A stretch of DNA of 57,436 nt, taken from Desulforadius tongensis (lineage in GTDB: Bacteria > Bacillota > Desulfotomaculia > Desulfotomaculales > Desulfohalotomaculaceae). Shown piece by piece: positions 15,612 through 53,884 of the stretch. Within the stretch, counting starts at the first letter, position 1. Every line of letters begins with the position of its first letter. The stretch lies in assembly GCF_016907915.1 (NCBI RefSeq), contig NZ_JAFBCW010000017.1:1-57436 (forward strand), written 5' to 3'. Both the position numbers and the translations under genes were made by a program. The notes below the pieces were generated by a model. The model did not search any database, was not told the origin of the DNA, and saw nothing but the letters and a program-made list of their open reading frames with translations.

Positions 15612-16307
15612 ATGATGCCCAAAATACTGGTTGTAGATGATGAAGAAAACATTATCGAATTAGTAAAATTTAACCTGGAACGGGAAGGATACCAGGTAAT
15701 TAGTACCGGCAACGGGGATGAAGCTTTGAAACTGGTGCGCCGTGAATTACCGGATTTGGTGGTGCTGGATGTAATGCTGCCCGGTACAGATGGAATAACT
15801 GTCTGTCGGAATATAAACAGTGACCCCGAAACCAAAAATATACCAATTATCATGCTCAGTGCCAGGGGAGAAGAAGTGGATAAAATACTGGGCTTGGAAA
15901 TGGGTGCCGATGATTACATGACCAAACCCTTTTCGCCAAGGGAGCTGGTGGCGCGTATTAAAGCCCGGCTGCGCCGCCAGGTAGAAGAGGTTTCCTACTC
16001 CAAGCGGCTATCCGTTGGTGGTTTAATTATCGATGAAGACCGCTTTGCCGTTACTGTCAACGGGTCAAAATTAGAACTGACACCAAAGGAATTTGAACTG
16101 ATGCGCTTTCTGGCTAAGCATCCCGGCAAGGTTTTTACCAGGGATTTCCTGCTGGAAAAAATTTGGGGTTATGACTATACCGGTGACTCTCGTACAGTGG
16201 ACGTGCATATTCGCCATATCCGCCAAAAGCTGGAGCGGCTTGAGAATTCACCTCAATTAATTGAAACGGTGCGTGGGGTGGGGTATCGATTTAAGGAGGT
16301 AAAGTAA
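15612..16307 (+). CDS. phoP: PhoP-type response regulator
   Basis: The 231-residue OmpR/PhoB-family regulator has a receiver domain (residues about 1-120) with the acidic pocket DDEE near residue 10, the phosphorylated aspartate in VVLDVMLPG near 54 and lysine in TKPFSP near 105. A winged-helix DNA-binding domain follows (LTPKEFELMRFL, VWGYD-like WGYDYTGDSRTVDVHIRHIR). GGGGAGG precedes the ATG. It is next to a PhoR-type kinase and pstB-phoU, so phosphate is the likely signal. TTAACA-type repeats at 17681 and 53003 are plausible targets. Confidence 0.9.
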   Translation: MMPKILVVDDEENIIELVKFNLEREGYQVISTGNGDEALKLVRRELPDLVVLDVMLPGTDGITVCRNINSDPETKNIPIIMLSARGEEVDKILGLEMGADDYMTKPFSPRELVARIKARLRRQVEEVSYSKRLSVGGLIIDEDRFAVTVNGSKLELTPKEFELMRFLAKHPGKVFTRDFLLEKIWGYDYTGDSRTVDVHIRHIRQKLERLENSPQLIETVRGVGYRFKEVK

Positions 16308-16310
16308 GCG

Positions 16311-17684
16311 GTGAACCTGGGAATCAAAAGCCGCATCATAGCCAGTTATGTGGGTCTTTTAATTGTGTTTATAGCTGTAACGGTGCTTTTGGCAGAGGAT
16401 TTTATATCCGCTTATACTGCCATGGCCATAGCCGCTGTCAGTACCGTGATAATGTTTTATTTAATGTTAATTCGCCTGATAAAACCGTTGGAAGAAATTA
16501 CCCATACTGCTTACGAAATGGCTGGGGGTATTTTGGAAAGGGAGATTATGGTTCAGGCAGACGATGAAATTGATGAGCTGGCCACCAGCATTAATTTCAT
16601 GGCCCGGCAGCTGCGCCGGAATATGGTCATGATCGGTGAAGAACGCAACCGGGCCAAAGCTGTTTTAGACAGCATGGCTGACGGTGTTATTGCCCTGGAT
16701 TCTGAAAGCCGGGTGATAATGCTCAACCCCGCCCTGGAAAAAAAATTTAAAATTGACAGGGGCAGCAGTATAGGCAAAAAGCTAATAGAAGTGATTCGCA
16801 ATTACGAGCTGGATCAGCTTTTACGTCAGGTGCTGAAGAGTAAAGAACCGCAGTGCCGAGAAATTAAAGTATTAATGCCTAATCCCGCGGTGCTTAAAGT
16901 GCATGTCACCCCCCTCAAAGCCGGCGACAGCAATTCTTCAGGGGTAGTGGCACTGCTGCGGGATATTACCGAGCGGCGCCAGCTGGAAAAAATGCGTGCT
17001 GATTTTGTGGCCAATGTGTCCCATGAACTGCGCACTCCTCTAACTTCAATTAATGGCTTTTTAGAAACCCTTTTGGATGGGGCTATGGATGATAAAGAAA
17101 CAGCCAGGCGTTTCCTGGGTATTGTAAAAAAAGAAACGGACCGTTTAAGCAAACTGGTGGATGATTTGCTTAAACTGTCCAAGTTGGAAAACAACAAAAC
17201 CATATTGGAAAAACAGCCCGTTAATATGGCAAAAATTATCGGTCAGGTAACGGAAATGTTTACCGCCCAGGCGGAAGCCAAAGATATTGAAATTACTACC
17301 AAGGTACCGGAAAATGTACCTCCTGTGATGGGAGAAAAAGACTTATTAATACAAGTGCTGGTTAATTTGGTAGATAATGCCATTAAGTACACGCCGGAAA
17401 AAGGAAAAGTAACTATAACTGCCGAAGCGGAACAGCAGGCAGTAAAGGTATCGGTCCGGGACACCGGCACCGGTATCCCCCAAGAAAGCCTGCCCAGGGT
17501 ATTTGAGCGCTTTTACCGGGTTGATAAGGCCCGTTCCAGAGAGGTGGGAGGCACCGGGCTGGGGTTAGCCATTGTCAAGCATGTAATAGAGCTTCATGAT
17601 GGAGAAATCGAGGTTGAAAGTTCACCCGGGGGTACAGTATTTACTTTTAAACTGCCGCTGGGGCAGGGATGCTGTGCGTGTTAA
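16311..17684 (+). CDS. phoR: PhoR-type sensor histidine kinase
   Basis: The 457-residue kinase begins with two membrane segments (about residues 9-25 and 33-53) separated by only about eight residues, so there is almost no outside sensor domain. HAMP (LIRLIKPLEEITHTAYEMA), PAS (LDSMADGVIALDSESRVIML), HisKA with the phosphorylated histidine in VSHELRTPL, and HATPase with DNAIKYTPEKG and GTGLGLAI follow. This layout resembles enterobacterial PhoR, which senses through the Pst transporter and PhoU, and phoU lies just downstream. The start is a GTG four bases after phoP. The last bases overlap a TTAACA repeat. Confidence 0.9.
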   Translation: MNLGIKSRIIASYVGLLIVFIAVTVLLAEDFISAYTAMAIAAVSTVIMFYLMLIRLIKPLEEITHTAYEMAGGILEREIMVQADDEIDELATSINFMARQLRRNMVMIGEERNRAKAVLDSMADGVIALDSESRVIMLNPALEKKFKIDRGSSIGKKLIEVIRNYELDQLLRQVLKSKEPQCREIKVLMPNPAVLKVHVTPLKAGDSNSSGVVALLRDITERRQLEKMRADFVANVSHELRTPLTSINGFLETLLDGAMDDKETARRFLGIVKKETDRLSKLVDDLLKLSKLENNKTILEKQPVNMAKIIGQVTEMFTAQAEAKDIEITTKVPENVPPVMGEKDLLIQVLVNLVDNAIKYTPEKGKVTITAEAEQQAVKVSVRDTGTGIPQESLPRVFERFYRVDKARSREVGGTGLGLAIVKHVIELHDGEIEVESSPGGTVFTFKLPLGQGCCAC

Positions 17685-17718
17685 CATAAAGTTAACCTTA
17701 AATAAACGCAGGTATAAA
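17681..17718 (+). promoter_or_regulatory. Putative PhoP box and promoter before pstB
   Basis: TTAACA (17681) and TTAACC (17692) are direct repeats with 11-bp spacing; a weaker TAAACG lies in the same phase at 17703. TATAAA (17713-17718) could be the -10 box. The repeat type matches the Firmicute PhoP box (TTAACA, N5, repeated). Confidence 0.55.
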
Positions 17719-17767
17719 AAGGAGCTGTTAGAATTGCCATGACGGGTGTATTATTAGTATTTAAGTG

Positions 17768-17820
17768 TATGGTCAAGGGTATTTATAGCATTGTATGAGC
17801 CAGGGGTACTTTTGACCATA
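17768..17820 (+). other. 14-bp inverted repeat in the pstB leader
   Basis: TATGGTCAAGGGTA (17768-17781) pairs fully, two wobbles, with TACTTTTGACCATA (17807-17820) over a 25-base loop. No T run follows, so it is not an ordinary terminator. A 19-codon reading frame starts at an ATG at 17739 and ends inside the loop, but its ribosome site is poorly spaced. Confidence 0.5.
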
Positions 17821-17861
17821 TGCTTCTTAACTGTTTCCTAATGTTAAGGAGGACTGTTATT

Positions 17862-18620
17862 TTGACTAACAGCAAAATATCCGTGCAAAACTTGAATTTG
17901 TATTATAAAGACTTTCAAGCGTTAAAAAATGTAAGCCTGGATGTGCTGGAAAACCGCGTTACTGCTTTAATTGGCCCATCCGGTTGTGGTAAATCCACTT
18001 TTTTACGCACATTAAACCGGATGAATGATTTGATAGAGGGTGTGCGTGTAGAAGGTAAAGTGACGTTAGACGGTGTAGATATCTACCGGCCGGATGTTGA
18101 TGTAGTCAGCCTGCGTAAAAGAGTGGGTATGGTTTTTCAAAAACCCAATCCATTCCCGATGTCGGTTTATGACAACGTTGCTTACGGGCCCCGTATTCAC
18201 GGGATCAAGAATAAGCAGCAGCTGGACCAAATAGTTGAAAAAAGCCTGCGGGGTGCGGCTTTGTGGGATGAAGTTCAAGACCGGTTGTATAAATCTGCTT
18301 TGGGTTTATCCGGTGGCCAGCAGCAGCGCCTGTGTATTGCCAGGCTGCTGGCGGTGGAACCGGAGGTTTTGCTAATGGATGAGCCCACTTCAGCCCTTGA
18401 TCCGGTTTCCACGTTAAAAATTGAAGAATTAATTCGCGAATTAAAAAATAAATACACCATCATTATAGTAACCCACAACATGCAGCAGGCAGCCAGGGTT
18501 TCCGATACCACCGCATTTTTCCTCAATGGGGATTTAGTGGAATGCGGGGATACCGGTGCAATATTTACCATGCCCGAGGATAAACGGACAGAAGACTATA
18601 TTACCGGTAGATTTGGTTAG
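17862..18620 (+). CDS. pstB: Phosphate ABC transporter ATP-binding protein PstB
   Basis: PstB is the ATPase of the high-affinity phosphate transporter. The 252-residue product has Walker [11 protein letters not shown]-loop region [19 protein letters not shown] (a PstB hallmark), signature LSGGQQQRL, Walker [13 protein letters not shown] and the switch histidine in [10 protein letters not shown]. The TTG at 17862 is chosen because AAGGAGG lies nine bases upstream; an earlier ATG at 17820 overlaps the leader hairpin. The genes for PstS, PstC and PstA are not in the window, so this copy must work with subunits encoded elsewhere or serve mainly in signalling with PhoU and PhoR. Confidence 0.95.
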
Positions 18621-18647: not shown

Positions 18648-19304
18648 ATGACAGTGAGAAGCAATTTTGACAAAGCGTTGATGGAAATACAGCAGGACAT
18701 CCTGCGTGTGGCCAGTTTGGTTGAAGAATCCATTTACAATTCCATGGAAGCTTTAAACAGTCAAGATGTTGTACTGGCGGCTAAAGTGATTGAAGGCGAC
18801 GACGTAATAGATGATCTGAAAGAAAAAATAGAGAATAAATGTATTACCCTGATTGCCACTCAGCAGCCCATAGCTAAAGACCTGCGGGTGGTGATAACGG
18901 GAATTAAGATTCTGGTCAGCCTGGAGCGTATTGGCGATCACTCGGTGGATATTGCCCGGACAACCATGTGCCTGGCAGAGCAAAAATTAATCAAACCGCT
19001 GGTGGATCTCACGCACATGGCCAAACTGGTGCAGGACATGGTTAGAGACGGCCTGGACGCTTATGTCCATGGAGATGTTGAGAAAGCTCGTGAAATGTGT
19101 GATAACGATGACGAAGTGGATGACCTGTACCACAAGATTTTTAGAGAATTGACTGTGTACATGAAAAAAGACCCTGAAACCATCGACCAGGCAGTTTATT
19201 TAATGTTTATAAGCAGGTTCTTAGAACGGATTGGTGACCATGCCACCAACATCGGTGAAAATGTTATTTATTTAGTTACAGGGGAAAAGGAAGAACTTAA
19301 TTAA
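18648..19304 (+). CDS. phoU: Phosphate signalling protein PhoU
   Basis: PhoU is a cytoplasmic helical-bundle protein that links the state of the Pst transporter to the PhoR kinase. The 218-residue product has the two repeated PhoU domains, each with a metal-binding E/D motif: LERIGDHSVDIA near residue 88 and LERIGDHATNIGE near 189. Length is typical. It begins 28 bases after pstB, with TGGGGGT upstream of the ATG, and ends in a strong terminator, closing the phosphate block. Confidence 0.96.
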   Translation: MTVRSNFDKALMEIQQDILRVASLVEESIYNSMEALNSQDVVLAAKVIEGDDVIDDLKEKIENKCITLIATQQPIAKDLRVVITGIKILVSLERIGDHSVDIARTTMCLAEQKLIKPLVDLTHMAKLVQDMVRDGLDAYVHGDVEKAREMCDNDDEVDDLYHKIFRELTVYMKKDPETIDQAVYLMFISRFLERIGDHATNIGENVIYLVTGEKEELN

Positions 19305-24755: not shown

Positions 24756-25030
24756 GGTAGTTTTATAATAATAAATCTTCTTAAAGCCTGTGAACGGAAC
24801 AGTAGATTGTGGTTAATGTTTCAGAGAGCCCGGGTGAGGTGGAAGCCGGGTACATGGCCGCTTTCGAAGATCCTCCGGGAGGTGCACGATCGAATGCGCA
24901 GTGGTGTTAGTAGGTTGTGCCGGACACACCGACGTTAACGGTGCAGAGTGATCAGGTGCCTGGCGCCTGTTCACAAGGGTGGTACCGCGGAAGATAATCC
25001 GTCCCTTGGGGGGGCGGATTTTTTGTTTTA
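24756..25030 (+). ncRNA. T-box leader (isoleucine) controlling ileS
   Basis: The leader binds uncharged tRNA-Ile to allow read-through. The T-box AGGGTGGTACCGCG is at 24976-24989. The stem I distal part runs from CAGAGAGCCCGGG to CCGGGTA. The most likely specifier codon is ATC at 24870-24872 (GAAGATCCTCC), which fits isoleucine. The terminator pairs AATCCGTCCC (24996-25005) with GGGGCGGATT (25011-25020) before TTTT. The leader sits directly upstream of ileS. Confidence 0.93.
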
Positions 25031-25065: not shown

Positions 25066-27861
25066 ATGGATTACGGCAAGACATTAAACCTGCCTAAAAC
25101 CGACTTTCCCATGCGGGGAAATTTGCCCCAGCGGGAACCGGAAATGTTAAAATGGTGGGAAGAAATTGACATCTACCGCCGGGTACAGCAGAAGAACAAA
25201 GGTAAAGAAAAATTTATTCTGCATGACGGGCCTCCCTATGCCAATGGCCACATTCACCTGGGTCATACATTAAACAAAGTATTAAAAGATATGGTGGTTA
25301 AATACCGCTCAATGGCCGGATATGATGCTCCCTATGTACCGGGTTGGGATACCCACGGCCTGCCCATTGAACAGCAGGTAATTAAAAAACTTAAAATCAA
25401 CCGCCACGAAATTGATCCGGTGGAATTTAGAAAACAATGTAAAGAATATGCTCTTAAATTTGTAGAAATTCAAAAAGAAGAATTTAAGCGGTTAGGGGTA
25501 CGCGGCGATTGGGACCACCCCTATTACACACTGCTGCCCAAATATGAAGCTAAACAAATTCGGGTTTTTGGAGAAATGGCCAAAGCCGGTTATATCTATA
25601 AAGGATTAAAACCGGTATACTGGTGTGCCGACTGCGAAACAGCGCTGGCAGAAGCGGAAGTGGAATACAGTGATAAAACATCACCATCCATCTATGTGAA
25701 ATTCCCGGTAAAAGACGGTAAGGAACTGCTGCCGGAGGAAAAAACATACGTGGTAATTTGGACCACCACCCCGTGGACGCTGCCGGCCAACGTGGCCATT
25801 GCTCTGCACCCGGAGCTGGATTACGTACTGGTACAGGTGGGAGATGATAAACACCTGCTGGCCAGGGAGCTGCTGGAAAAATACCTGCAAATTACCGAGC
25901 TTAAAGATACTAAAATCCTAAAAGAATTTAAAGGTGAACAGCTGGAAGGGGTGGTATGCAGGCATCCCTTTATGGACCGTGATTCGCTGGTTATTTTAGG
26001 TGATCACGTAACCACCGATACAGGTACCGGTTGTGTTCACACGGCCACCGGTCATGGTGAAGAAGACTTTATGGTGGGTAAAAAATATAACCTGCCGGTG
26101 ATTTCCCCGGTGAATAACAGCGGAGTTTTCACCGCAGAAGCGGGGAAATTCCAGGGAACAAAAATTTGGGAAGCCAATAAACTTATTATAGAAGAACTAA
26201 AAAATTTGGGTATGCTGGTGTATGTAGATAAAATCCAGCACTCCTACCCCCACTGCTGGCGCTGCAAACAGCCTGTTTTCTTCCGGGCCACAGAGCAGTG
26301 GTTTGCTTCAGTGGAAGGGTTCCGTCAAAAAGCATTGGAAGCCATTAGAAATAAAGTACAGTGGATTCCTTCCTGGGGTGAAGATCGTATCTACAACATG
26401 ATCGAAGGACGGGGTGACTGGTGCATTTCCCGCCAGCGTGTATGGGGTGTGCCCATTCCCATCTTCTACTGTAAGGAATGCGGCAGAGAATTAATAAACG
26501 AAGCCACCATTGCCCACCTGGAAAAAATATTTGCCGAACACGGTTCCGATGCTTGGTTCAGCAGGGAAGTTAAAGACTTAATGCCCGAGGGAACCAGCTG
26601 TCCCCACTGCGGTGCAGCTGAATTTAATAAAGAAACAGACACCATGGATGTTTGGTTTGATTCCGGTTCCAGTCACCTGGGTGTATTGGATCAGCCGGAA
26701 TTGTGGCCGGATTTGCGCTGGCCGGCAGATCTCTACCTGGAGGGCAGCGACCAGCACCGGGGATGGTTTAACTCTTCACTGTCCACAGCCATGGCGGTAA
26801 CCGGGGAACCGCCTTACAAAGCGGTGCTGACCCATGGTTTTGTGGTAGACGAAAATGGACGAAAAATGTCTAAATCACTGGGGAATGTTGTAGACCCGTT
26901 AAAAGTAATTAAACAAATGGGTGCCGATATTCTGCGCCTGTGGGTATCATCAGCTGACTACCGCGGTGACTTGGCAGTATCTAACAATATCTTAAAGCAG
27001 TTAACCGAAGCCTATCGCAAAATTCGCAATACCGCTCGTTTTCTGTTGGGTAACTTGAGAGATTTTGAACCGGATAAACACAGTTTGCCGTACCGGGAGC
27101 TGCAGGAATTAGACCGCTGGGCACTGCTGCGCCTGCACAGGCTGATAGACCGGGTGGTAAAGGCTTACGACAATTACGAGTTTCATGTGGTTTACCATGC
27201 GGTGCATAACTTCTGTGTAATAGATATGAGTGCCCGTTACCTGGATATTATTAAAGACCGGCTGTACACGTCGCTGCCGGAATCTAAAGAGCGCCGGGCG
27301 GCTCAAACAGTACTGTACCAGGTATTGGATGCACTGGTTAGGTTAATCACCCCGGTGCTGGCCTTTACCAGTGAAGAAATTTACAGGCACATGCCCAAGC
27401 CGGAAGGCAGCCCCATAAGCGTGCAGCTGCTGGATATGCCGGAAGTAAATGAAGAGTACCTGGACATTGATTTGGAACAAAAGTGGGATCGCTTGATGCA
27501 GGTGAGGGCAGAGGTACTGAAACACCTGGAAACTGCCCGAAAGGAAAAATTCATCGGCAATTCCCTGGAAGCAGCGGTACAGGTTTATGCAGCGGAAGAA
27601 TTATATAACTTCTTAAAGCCCATGGAAAAAGACCTGGCCGCATTGTTTATTACCTCCCAGGCTTACTTGAACAAAGGAATTCCTGCCGGTGCAGCTGCCA
27701 GCGAAACATTACCGGGTTTGGCAGTTAAAGTGGAAAGGGCTGTGGGAGAAAAATGCGAGCGCTGCTGGATGTACCATGAAGGGGTAGGCAGCAGCGATAA
27801 GCATCCTTCCCTTTGTCCCCGCTGTGCTTCGGTTGTACGACAAATGGAATCCCAGGATTAA
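25066..27861 (+). CDS. ileS: Isoleucyl-tRNA synthetase
   Basis: The 931-residue class I synthetase charges tRNA-Ile. The HIGH motif is in [14 protein letters not shown] near residue 58, the editing domain has [10 protein letters not shown], and the KMSKS motif is in [10 protein letters not shown] near residue 605. The C-terminal zinc-binding region has CERCW and CPRC. Length and layout are typical of the bacterial, mupirocin-sensitive type. AGAGGTGA precedes the ATG. Expression is controlled by the T-box upstream, and a terminator overlaps the stop codon. Confidence 0.98.
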
Positions 27862-28657: not shown

Positions 28658-28694
28658 ATAAAATTTAAAATAATCAAATAATTGACCGGAGGAA

Positions 28695-28905
28695 GGCAGC
28701 AGGAGAGTTCTGGAAAAACCAGGCGCCGAAGGAGCAAGGTTATCACTGGCTGGGCGGTAACCGAAACTCTCAGGCAAAATGAACTGCTGCCGGACGGAAC
28801 TCTGGAGAGTCCCGCGGTGGACACCCAAGGGGAAACCCCGGCAGGGGTAATCTCTCAGGTAAACGGACAGAGAAAACAGCTGGTATGGCTTTCTCTGTCT
28901 TTTTT
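28695..28905 (+). ncRNA. Tandem glycine riboswitch with terminator
   Basis: Two glycine aptamers lie in series. The first is closed by GGCAGCAG (28695)/CTGCTGCC (28784) and has the family cores GCGCCGAAGGAGCAA and GAAACTCTCAGGCAAAA. The second is closed by CTCTG (28800)/CAGAG (28868) with ATCTCTCAGGTAAACGGACAGAG-like sequence at 28850-28872. A terminator pairs GACAGAGAAA (28866-28875) with TTTCTCTGTC (28890-28899) before TTTTTT. The second P1 stem and the terminator share bases, so glycine binding should disrupt the terminator and switch gcv on. Confidence 0.95.
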
Positions 28906-51241: not shown

Positions 51242-52993
51242 TTGAGACGTACTAAAATTGTTTGCACCATCGGTCCGGCCAGCGAAGATGTGGAAATATT
51301 AAAAAAAATGATCAGGGCCGGTATGAATGTAGCCCGGATGAACTTTTCCCACGGCACCCATGAAGACCACGCCCGCAGAATATCTTTAGTTCGCCAGGCA
51401 GCTGCAGAAGTGGGGAAAAATATTGCCATAATGCTGGACACCAAAGGCCCGGAAATAAGGCTCGGTGTTTTTGCTGAAGAACCGATACTGCTCAGAGCAG
51501 GAGATGAATTTATCCTCACCACGGAAGAAATTCAGGGTGACAACAGCAGGGTTTCTGTAACTTATAAAGACCTGCCCAGGGATGTTACCAGGGGTGGGAA
51601 AATACTGGTGGCCGATGGCTTGATTGAGTTAGAGGTCATAGAAATAAACGATACCGAAGTACGCTGTAAGGTGGTTAACGGGGGGGAATTGAAGAGCCGT
51701 AAAGGAGTCAACCTTCCCGGGGTGCAGGTAAACCTGCCCGCTCTCACCGAAAAAGATATAGAAGATATTTTATTTGGTATTGAGCACCAGGTGGACTTTA
51801 TTGCCGCTTCTTTTATTAGAAATGCGGACAACGTATTAACCATAAGAAAGATTCTGGAAGAAAACAATGCTGATATCGACATTATCTCCAAAATTGAAAA
51901 TCGTGAGGCTGTAGATAAATTTGATGAAATACTGAAGGTATCCAATGGCATTATGGTTGCCCGGGGTGATTTGGGGGTAGAGATACCCGCCGAAGACGTA
52001 CCCATGATTCAAAAAACATTAATAGCCAAGTGCAACCTGGCCGGCAAACCGGTTATTACCGCCACCCAGATGCTGGAGTCCATGACCCACAATCCCAGGC
52101 CCACCAGGGCTGAGGCATCGGATGTGGCCAATGCCATTCTTGATGGTACCGACGCCATTATGCTGTCCGGTGAGAGTGCCGCCGGTAAATACCCTGTGGA
52201 AGCAGTAGAAACAATGAACCGTATTGCCGTTAGAGTTGAAAAATCATTCCCTTATGGCAAACACTTTAAAAAATTTAGTAACGGTAAAGCCAAAACGGTT
52301 ACAGACGGCATCAGCAGCGCGGTGTGCAGCGTTTCCGCCGATTTGGAAGCAGCGGCCATTTTATCAGCCACCGCTTCCGGTCATACCGCGAGAATGATAT
52401 CTAAATACCGGCCCCGGTGTCCCATTGTGGCGGTAACTCCAAACCCAAAAGTACTGCGTAAAATGGCGCTGGTTTGGGGAGTGGAACCGCTTTTAGTAAG
52501 AAAGATTACAGGAACTGATGAAATGATTGCAGAGACAGTAGAGGTGGCCCTGGCCTCAGGGATAATTAAAGCCGGGGACCTGGTGGTTATTACAGCGGGT
52601 GTGCCTGTGGGTATACACGGGACAACTAATTTACTTAAAGTACATACCGTGGGTAATATTTTAGCCCGCGGCACCGGTATCGGCAGCAGAGCTGTTACAG
52701 GTCAGGTTAAAGTTTGTCGTACAGTAAAGGATGCCCGGGAAAAGATTAAAGATGGAGACATTATGGTGACCGTTGGCACCGATAAAGATTTTGTTCCCTA
52801 TATGGAGAAATGTTCTGCCGTAGTTACCGAAGAAGCGGGGTTAACCTCCCATGCTGCCATTGTGGGACTGAATATAGGTATTCCGGTGGTGGTGGGAGTG
52901 GACGGCGCCACCGGTATTATTCCCGACGGGGAAATGATTACAGTTGACGGGCCAAGGGGATTAATTTACATTGGCACGGCGCGGGTAATGTAA
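51242..52993 (+). CDS. pyk: Pyruvate kinase with C-terminal PEP-utiliser domain
   Basis: The 583-residue enzyme makes ATP and pyruvate from phosphoenolpyruvate. The barrel has RTKIVCTIGPAS, MNFSHGTHEDH, MLDTKGPEIRLG, the active-site KIENREAVD and VARGDLGVEIP, and TQMLESMTHNPRPTRAE. The extra C-terminal domain (VVTEEAGLTSHAAIVGLNIGI, residues about 480-583) is the one found in Bacillus-type enzymes and resembles the phosphohistidine domain of PEP synthase. TTG at 51242 follows a G run. A PhoP-type repeat array begins ten bases after the stop. Confidence 0.96.
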   Translation: MRRTKIVCTIGPASEDVEILKKMIRAGMNVARMNFSHGTHEDHARRISLVRQAAAEVGKNIAIMLDTKGPEIRLGVFAEEPILLRAGDEFILTTEEIQGDNSRVSVTYKDLPRDVTRGGKILVADGLIELEVIEINDTEVRCKVVNGGELKSRKGVNLPGVQVNLPALTEKDIEDILFGIEHQVDFIAASFIRNADNVLTIRKILEENNADIDIISKIENREAVDKFDEILKVSNGIMVARGDLGVEIPAEDVPMIQKTLIAKCNLAGKPVITATQMLESMTHNPRPTRAEASDVANAILDGTDAIMLSGESAAGKYPVEAVETMNRIAVRVEKSFPYGKHFKKFSNGKAKTVTDGISSAVCSVSADLEAAAILSATASGHTARMISKYRPRCPIVAVTPNPKVLRKMALVWGVEPLLVRKITGTDEMIAETVEVALASGIIKAGDLVVITAGVPVGIHGTTNLLKVHTVGNILARGTGIGSRAVTGQVKVCRTVKDAREKIKDGDIMVTVGTDKDFVPYMEKCSAVVTEEAGLTSHAAIVGLNIGIPVVVGVDGATGIIPDGEMITVDGPRGLIYIGTARVM

Positions 52994-53002
52994 TAAATAA
53001 TC

Positions 53003-53056
53003 TTAACATAAATTTAACATTTTTTTGATTTTTAATTAACATGTCCATCCTATAAT
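53003..53056 (+). promoter_or_regulatory. PhoP-type box array and promoter
   Basis: Four units in exact 11-bp phase read TTAACATAAAT (53003), TTAACATTTTT (53014), TTGATTTTTAA (53025) and TTAACATGTCC (53036); three of the four start with TTAACA. TATAAT (53051-53056) follows, and there is no good -35 box. This is the layout of an activator-dependent Firmicute Pho promoter, with a start near 53063. Confidence 0.72.
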
Positions 53057-53062
53057 TAGTTT

Positions 53063-53160
53063 CAGTGTTGCAGGCGGGGATAAGAACTGCATAAGATGCG
53101 GTTCCGATCCTTGCCATAAAAGTATAAATAAAAACCCACTGCCCGGCAGTGGGTTTTTTT
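53063..53160 (+). ncRNA. Putative small RNA under PhoP control
   Basis: Between the PhoP-type promoter and a strong terminator lies a compact structure of about 98 bases with no reading frame. An outer stem GGCGGGGAT/ATCCTTGCC (53073-53081 with 53107-53115), an AA/CG internal loop and an inner stem GAACTGCAT/ATGCGGTTC (53084-53092 with 53096-53104) form one long hairpin. The terminator pairs CCCACTG with CAGTGGG (53135-53153) and ends in seven T. It could be a free regulatory RNA or an attenuated leader of dedA. I recognise no known family. Confidence 0.55.
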
Positions 53161-53214
53161 GTAGGTGCCGGCGGAAAGACAGCTTGTGGAACGGTGTTTC
53201 CCCTCTTTTTTGTC

Positions 53215-53242
53215 TTGTTAAGTTATGTAAGCAGGACATAAT
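53215..53242 (+). promoter_or_regulatory. Possible sigma-A promoter before dedA
   Basis: TTGTTA (53215-53220), 16 bp and CATAAT (53237-53242) would give a start 15-20 bases before the dedA TTG. Confidence 0.45.
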
Positions 53243-53263
53243 AACGTTGAGGGGGAATTAAGA

Positions 53264-53884
53264 TTGGAGCAGTTAACAGGGGCAGTTTTTCAATATTTAA
53301 GTCAGCTTGGCGGCATAGGCTTGTTTGTGGCGGTATTTATTGATGCACTGGGCATACCTTTTCCCGGTGGTTTAATGATTGTTATGTCCGGCTTTTTAAT
53401 TCAAAGAGGTGATTTGGGAGTAGTAGAGGCTGTTTTGGCCGTTGTGACAGGATACCTGTCCGGAGCTGTTGCAGCTTACTTTGTTGGTAAACATGTGGGT
53501 TACCCGACCATAAAAAAATACGGCAGGTACCTAAAAATTACTCCCGAAGGTTTTAAAAAGGGACAGCAATCCTTAAAGCATTCAGCTGCCGCTTATTTAA
53601 TTATAGGACGTTTTATACCTGCGGTGGGCAACATTGCACCCTACATGGCCGGAATCAGCGGACTAAAAATAATCTGGTTTGTATTATACAGTTCTGTCTT
53701 TGCCCTGCTGTGGGGAACTTTTAACTTATCTGTGGGCTATATTTTTGGGCGCAGTTGGCATAAAGCCGGCGAATTAATAGGTACGAACTCCTGGCTTGCG
53801 GCGGGGAGTTTGATACTTCTGTATTTTGGTTACAAGTATTACCAGCATAAAAAATTAAATAAAAATTTTATTGGGGGAGAATGA
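53264..53884 (+). CDS. DedA family membrane protein
   Basis: The 206-residue integral membrane protein belongs to the DedA/VTT family; characterised members move lipids such as undecaprenyl phosphate or phosphatidylethanolamine across the membrane. IDALGIPFPGGLMIVMSGFL near residue 25, YFVGKHVGYPTIKKYGRYL near 70, and RFIPAVGNIAPYMAGIS near 115 with the conserved arginine and proline are seen. GAGGGGGAA precedes the TTG start. It overlaps slightly with the reading frame of the SGNH hydrolase, so the two are likely cotranscribed. Confidence 0.92.
   Translation: MEQLTGAVFQYLSQLGGIGLFVAVFIDALGIPFPGGLMIVMSGFLIQRGDLGVVEAVLAVVTGYLSGAVAAYFVGKHVGYPTIKKYGRYLKITPEGFKKGQQSLKHSAAAYLIIGRFIPAVGNIAPYMAGISGLKIIWFVLYSSVFALLWGTFNLSVGYIFGRSWHKAGELIGTNSWLAAGSLILLYFGYKYYQHKKLNKNFIGGE

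Follow-up and report, generated by a model that had tools for sequence, protein, structure and literature searches.

A predicted PhoP-controlled small RNA gene between pyk and dedA in Desulforadius tongensis and relatives of its family

Small RNAs from two other bacteria offer a comparison for the locus described here. SgrS of E. coli is listed under PhoB/SgrR (PMC4415409, Table 1). It resembles the present RNA in being a small RNA connected with a phosphate regulator, although the two are unrelated in sequence and in organism. SgrS has known targets and also a coding part. In Sinorhizobium meliloti, some intergenic small RNA candidates have predicted PhoB sites and some are induced by phosphate starvation, the phosphate-induced candidates having no evident PhoB site (PMC2573895). 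The present RNA is likewise predicted to be intergenic and to be preceded by a Pho-type site, but it comes from another phylum than those candidates (PMC2573895), and its predicted site is conserved across genera. At the level of the promoter, PHO boxes are direct repeat units of 11 nt, similar features being described for B. subtilis (PMC4415409); PhoP boxes take the form TT(T/A/C)ACA (PMC6327384). The promoter considered here shares the hexamer, the 11-bp period and the placement of tandem units directly 5' of the -10 with the Bacillus-type Pho promoters controlled by PhoP (PMC4415409, PMC6327384), but differs from them in that the downstream gene is a predicted non-coding RNA and in having a TTGA-type third unit in each of the five genomes that carry it.

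The window, by which is meant the whole stretch of DNA analysed, comprises 57,436 nt of contig NZ_JAFBCW010000017.1. The initial annotation had placed a small RNA gene between pyk and dedA; that location was confirmed, and it is the same in five genomes. The features of the locus are as follows.

51242..52993, + strand: pyk, encoding pyruvate kinase with a PEP-utilizers mobile domain; upstream neighbour
53003..53041, + strand: predicted PhoP-type box (TTAACA, TTAACA, TTGATT, TTAACA), identified from sequence, chance tests, conservation in five genomes and the pstS register
53003-53008, + strand: box unit 1, TTAACA
53014-53019, + strand: box unit 2, TTAACA
53025-53030, + strand: box unit 3, TTGATT
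53036-53041, + strand: box unit 4, TTAACA
53051..53056, + strand: -10 hexamer TATAAT, N9 after box unit 4; identical in five of five genomes
53063..53160, + strand: predicted small RNA, 98 nt (93-109 nt in relatives), with a start site near 53063 predicted from the position of the -10
53073..53115, + strand: conserved two-part hairpin, GGCGGGGAU-AA-GAACUGC...GCGGUUC-CG-AUCCUUGCC, with arms 98% and 91% identical
53130..53160, + strand: intrinsic terminator, constant in presence but varying in sequence between genomes
53264..53884, + strand: dedA, encoding a VTT domain protein whose best NCBIfam match, UptA, is below cut-off; downstream neighbour

The promoter had been described as four TTAACA-like units in exact 11-bp phase ahead of a TATAAT that lacks a good -35 box, and both parts of this description were confirmed. 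The four units, each 11 bp from the next, can be read directly at 53003-53041, in an array that starts 9 bases 3' of the pyk stop codon (which ends at 52993), whereas no consensus -35 hexamer was found 16-18 nt 5' of the TATAAT, the -35 position (17 nt 5' of the -10) being occupied by ATTTTT. Since the local 70 nt around the box have an A+T content of 83%, a chance test of the array was needed. At 21 of 24 letters, the match of the array to the pattern was never equalled when the local 70 nt were dinucleotide-shuffled 20,000 times, indicating that the array lies beyond chance. Box and -10 together match 27 of 30 letters, which makes this the top-scoring place when both strands of the window are scanned; the second best, at 17681-17734, scores 24/30 and the remaining places score 20 or less. 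The four-unit pattern itself was matched once in the window as opposed to not at all in 100 shuffled windows. Across the organism's own genome it has three matches, namely the RNA gene, pstS and one weak place, with the RNA promoter being the best-matching Pho promoter found in that genome.

The assignment of the box to PhoP, which began as a guess, is strongly supported by comparison with other predicted promoters, since the same architecture recurs at pstS, at pstB-phoU and, in the wider order, ahead of pst genes and response-regulator genes. The presence of PhoP, PhoR, PstB and PhoU in the same window was borne out by profile matches, the regulator alone falling below its curated cut-off. 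The relevant features are listed below.

15612..16307, + strand: PhoP/PhoB-type response regulator with Response_reg and Trans_reg_C domains, the candidate activator; best NCBIfam match PhoB at 280.6 bits, under the cut-off of 296.2
16311..17684, + strand: PhoR/PnpS-type sensor kinase; NCBIfam PnpS 457 (cut-off 400) and PhoR 353.9 (cut-off 334.2)
17681..17734, + strand: second PhoP-type promoter, between phoR and pstB-phoU, with units TTAACA, TTAACC, ATAAAC and TATAAA in 11-bp phase, then N9 and TAGAAT
17820..18620, + strand: pstB, passing the curated cut-off
18648..19304, + strand: phoU, passing the curated cut-off

The pstS promoters of the same and sister genomes contain equal units in the same 11-bp register as the RNA box. 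An alignment of pst arrays from six genomes (the pstS promoters of five, plus a sixth array whose contig ends before the gene) showed units at 0, 11, 22, 33, (44) and 55, mostly followed by N9 and then the -10. The successive columns read TTAACA; TTAACA (TTTATA in the organism's own genome); TTAAC; TTTACC, TTTACT or TTAACA; a degenerate fifth; and TTAACA. These six-unit pst promoters of the family are loci L039, L031, L032, L036, L029 and L028. Judged by its letters and spacing, the predicted RNA promoter is a pst-type array that has four units where the pst promoters have six. In the order as a whole, a stricter pattern of four units, N9 and TANNNT was matched in 55 of 113 genomes, compared with three matches in total for the reversed pattern used as control, and the genes 3' of the matches include those for PstS-type binding proteins, a transport permease, an ABC ATPase and an OmpR-type response regulator. 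Taken with the six-unit pst arrays, the order-wide box defines a PhoP recognition rule for the order, of which a limited literature search found no published description. Unusually numerous and long TTAACA arrays with the 11-bp period were observed in three genomes (G080, G081 and G083), which may reflect either growth of the Pho regulon or expansion of the repeats.

A different OmpR-type regulator, such as WalR/YycF, could conceivably read the repeats, in which case the RNA would answer to the state of the cell wall as opposed to phosphate. The WalR box is resembled by TGTTAA, and TTAACA is TGTTAA on the opposite strand; moreover, the regulator at 15612..16307 scores 276 bits against YycF compared with 281 against PhoB. 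However, the same motif, with orientation and spacing unchanged, occurs at sister pstS genes, at pst genes elsewhere in the order and at pstB-phoU in the window, and reading by WalR/YycF is considered highly improbable. Binding of PhoP to the RNA promoter, and with it the existence of the transcript, is what we infer from these sequences.

Promoter, hairpin and terminator were found together between pyk and dedA in five of the seven genomes of the family. The fold predicted for 53063-53165 has a free energy of -47.7 kcal/mol (z -7.2), with none of 200 shuffles being equally stable, and comprises a hairpin of 9+9 bp interrupted by a 2x2 internal loop, followed by a terminator whose stem has about 13 bp and which ends in a U-run. 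The initial annotation's hairpin of two 9-bp parts and its strong terminator are thus both predicted in this genome, although conservation among the five genomes is limited to 9 pairs in the lower part of the hairpin and 7 in the upper, the loop-adjacent pairs being variable. In each of the five, the predicted RNA is 93-109 nt long, with a hairpin and a terminator that fold independently. The claim that no protein is encoded was upheld: the hairpin loops are 7, 6, 6, 7 and 5 nt long in the five genomes, and as these differences shift the reading frame from one genome to the next, a peptide is unlikely and this reading was ruled out. A tRNA-like reading, suggested by GGUUC...UCC in the 3' arm, which recalls a T-arm, was also rejected, given that ARAGORN found no tRNA in the window and that the stem lengths do not fit.

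The RNA had not been recognised as a member of any family, and indeed Rfam 15 contains none that matches the RNA locus at or above its gathering score. The best sub-threshold matches were Thr_leader (RF00506) at 28.9 bits and Phe_leader (RF01859) at 26.4 bits, the gathering score being 55 for both. The likeness resides in a hairpin followed by a terminator, as in the present RNA; the latter, however, has neither a leader peptide nor a downstream amino-acid gene.

Conservation across the five genomes is distributed unevenly. Pairwise identity is 100, 93, 80 and 100% for the hexamers of box units 1 to 4, 100% for the -10, and 98 and 91% for the two hairpin arms, compared with 50% for the spacer, 55% for the loop, 44% for the leader, 30% for the linker, 48% for the terminator and 23% for the stretch between pyk and the box. 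Since the neighbouring DedA proteins of the sister genomes are only 50-73% identical to that of the window, the near-identity of the hairpin arms indicates selection rather than recent ancestry.

The covariance-model check envisaged for relatives gave a divided outcome, in that homologues were found in five of seven family genomes whereas compensatory change is nearly absent. Fifteen of the 16 conserved pairs are invariant, so that there is scarcely any variation from which covariation could arise, and the invariant pairs include three G-U wobbles, any of which a single change on either side could turn into a Watson-Crick pair. The sixteenth pair shows one compensatory change, from C-G to U-A, but a figure of one in 16 pairs changing on both sides was reached by 105 of 500 shuffles and is not significant with five sequences only. 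The fold was kept in 100% of cells, as opposed to at most 60% with slid partners (five sequences). With so few sequences, covariation neither proves nor refutes the fold.

The RNA is not a general feature of Desulfotomaculum-type genomes, since searches of the order and phylum placed it in one family. The sample comprised seven genomes of the family and 106 others of the order (113 in total), together with 398 genomes of the phylum. The covariance model detected no homologue in the 106 other genomes of the order and none in other families among the 398 genomes of the phylum; a run at looser threshold added to the known sites nothing but weak matches (E >=0.018), which were judged to be chance. 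A pattern scan of 84,980 species recovered the RNA in Desulfotomaculum sp. GB_MAG20_002 (JACDOL010000002) and Bacillota MES5 (VENI01000009), both already among the five carriers. Scattered matches from the same scan in unrelated phyla and Clostridia are regarded as probable chance matches. As far as was searched, then, the predicted RNA is restricted to one family of the order. Two smaller genomes of that family (G004 and G005) have Pho-type boxes yet are without the RNA: G005 has another stretch between pyk and dedA, which reads like a putative nuclease gene, and in G004 no dedA match was found.

The position of the RNA on the dedA strand, about 100 nt upstream of the gene, raises the main rival explanation, namely that it is a leader or attenuator, in which dedA and a GDSL hydrolase gene would be transcribed from the PhoP promoter while the hairpin and terminator decide read-through in cis. 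Both genes follow the RNA in all five genomes that carry it. DedA-type proteins recycle undecaprenyl phosphate, which provides a plausible link to phosphate. However, the hairpin and terminator fold separately in all five genomes, and because the terminators differ in sequence from one genome to another no antiterminator pairing common to the five can be seen. Furthermore, in other families of the order pyk adjoins dedA, usually at a short distance, and the intervening stretches that were read contained neither the box nor the hairpin; dedA thus keeps its place 3' of pyk across the order without a box, and has its own conserved -10-like element beside its ribosome-binding site. A role as dedA leader is accordingly regarded as unlikely. 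A separate element was observed at 53229-53255 and in the dedA leaders of many genomes of the order (L054-L083), where the ribosome-binding site seems to lie in the 3' arm of a hairpin whose loop contains a -10-like [CT]ATNNTAA, with complementary stems that differ in sequence between families; the element may be cis-regulatory, or else a promoter that lies within a hairpin.

The upstream neighbour suggests another origin, in which the hairpin and terminator form the 3' end of the pyk mRNA and the small RNA arises mainly by processing, or is absent. No other terminator-like site was reported on the + strand between 52993 and 53130, and pyk transcripts should consequently also end at the terminator at 53130-53160. 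Against this stand the dedicated and strongly conserved promoter between pyk and the hairpin, and the other families of the order, which have pyk without the RNA's hairpin. As an account of the RNA this reading is very improbable; it is probably true in part, as read-through, but leaves the promoter unexplained, and the two routes could coexist.

Two marks of an independent small RNA gene are present at the locus, in that its own promoter and its own terminator are conserved jointly and that there is no conserved reading frame. Among 30 motif loci that were read, a terminator lies close 3' of the promoter at all five RNA sites, with no gene common to all five between the two; a terminator-like site was also seen at a weak box (L177) and in a pstS leader (L182). 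The joint conservation of promoter, hairpin and terminator in five genomes, with no match in Rfam, supports the original small RNA interpretation, and the locus is taken to be a conserved candidate gene for a small RNA that represents a new family and is very probably controlled by PhoP. That the RNA belongs to the Pho regulon as a PhoP-activated, intrinsically terminated molecule acting in trans via its invariant hairpin seems likely. Under phosphate limitation, phosphorylated PhoP would bind the four direct repeats and recruit RNA polymerase to the -10 hexamer, there being no -35 box, and about 98 nt would be transcribed, ending at the intrinsic terminator. The product would then serve as a trans-acting post-transcriptional effector in the phosphate-starvation response, with the invariant hairpin as its working part. 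If this is correct, Desulfotomaculum-type Firmicutes possess a new small RNA family under PhoP control, and the phosphate-starvation response of the lineage includes an RNA regulator.

How such an RNA might act was considered with reference to its targets. Complements of either hairpin arm were sought in the sister genomes, and the sole shared site was the RNA gene itself, although short or wobble-rich sites would escape such searches. Similarly, a search for GGCAAGGAT, an anti-Shine-Dalgarno pattern, 5' of start codons revealed no convincing translation start common to the sister genomes, and the few matches of the target searches in orthologous genes lay inside coding sequence or at differing places. 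No conserved arm complement was thus found in the sister genomes that would provide a target for the proposed action in trans. Pairing small RNAs usually keep their seed in single-stranded parts. In the present RNA the predicted single-stranded parts are the least conserved. Because these parts drift while both arms and the three wobbles are frozen, we lean slightly towards a folded hairpin that would be bound by a partner, of which a protein is the simplest case, rather than ordinary seed pairing by the loop. It is about equally possible that a hairpin arm opens to pair with mRNAs, for example through AUCCUU with an AAGGAU ribosome-binding site. The more specific proposal that the invariant hairpin acts in its folded form, for instance as a decoy for an RNA-binding protein, and not by ordinary seed pairing, is offered tentatively, being possible rather than probable; were it to hold, phosphate limitation would gain a direct RNA arm in Desulfotomaculum-type bacteria.

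Elsewhere in the window, a group II intron match was seen at its edge (22-92), a T-box leader at 24781-25009, 5' of a 931-aa ORF at 25066, and a glycine riboswitch at 28690-28796.
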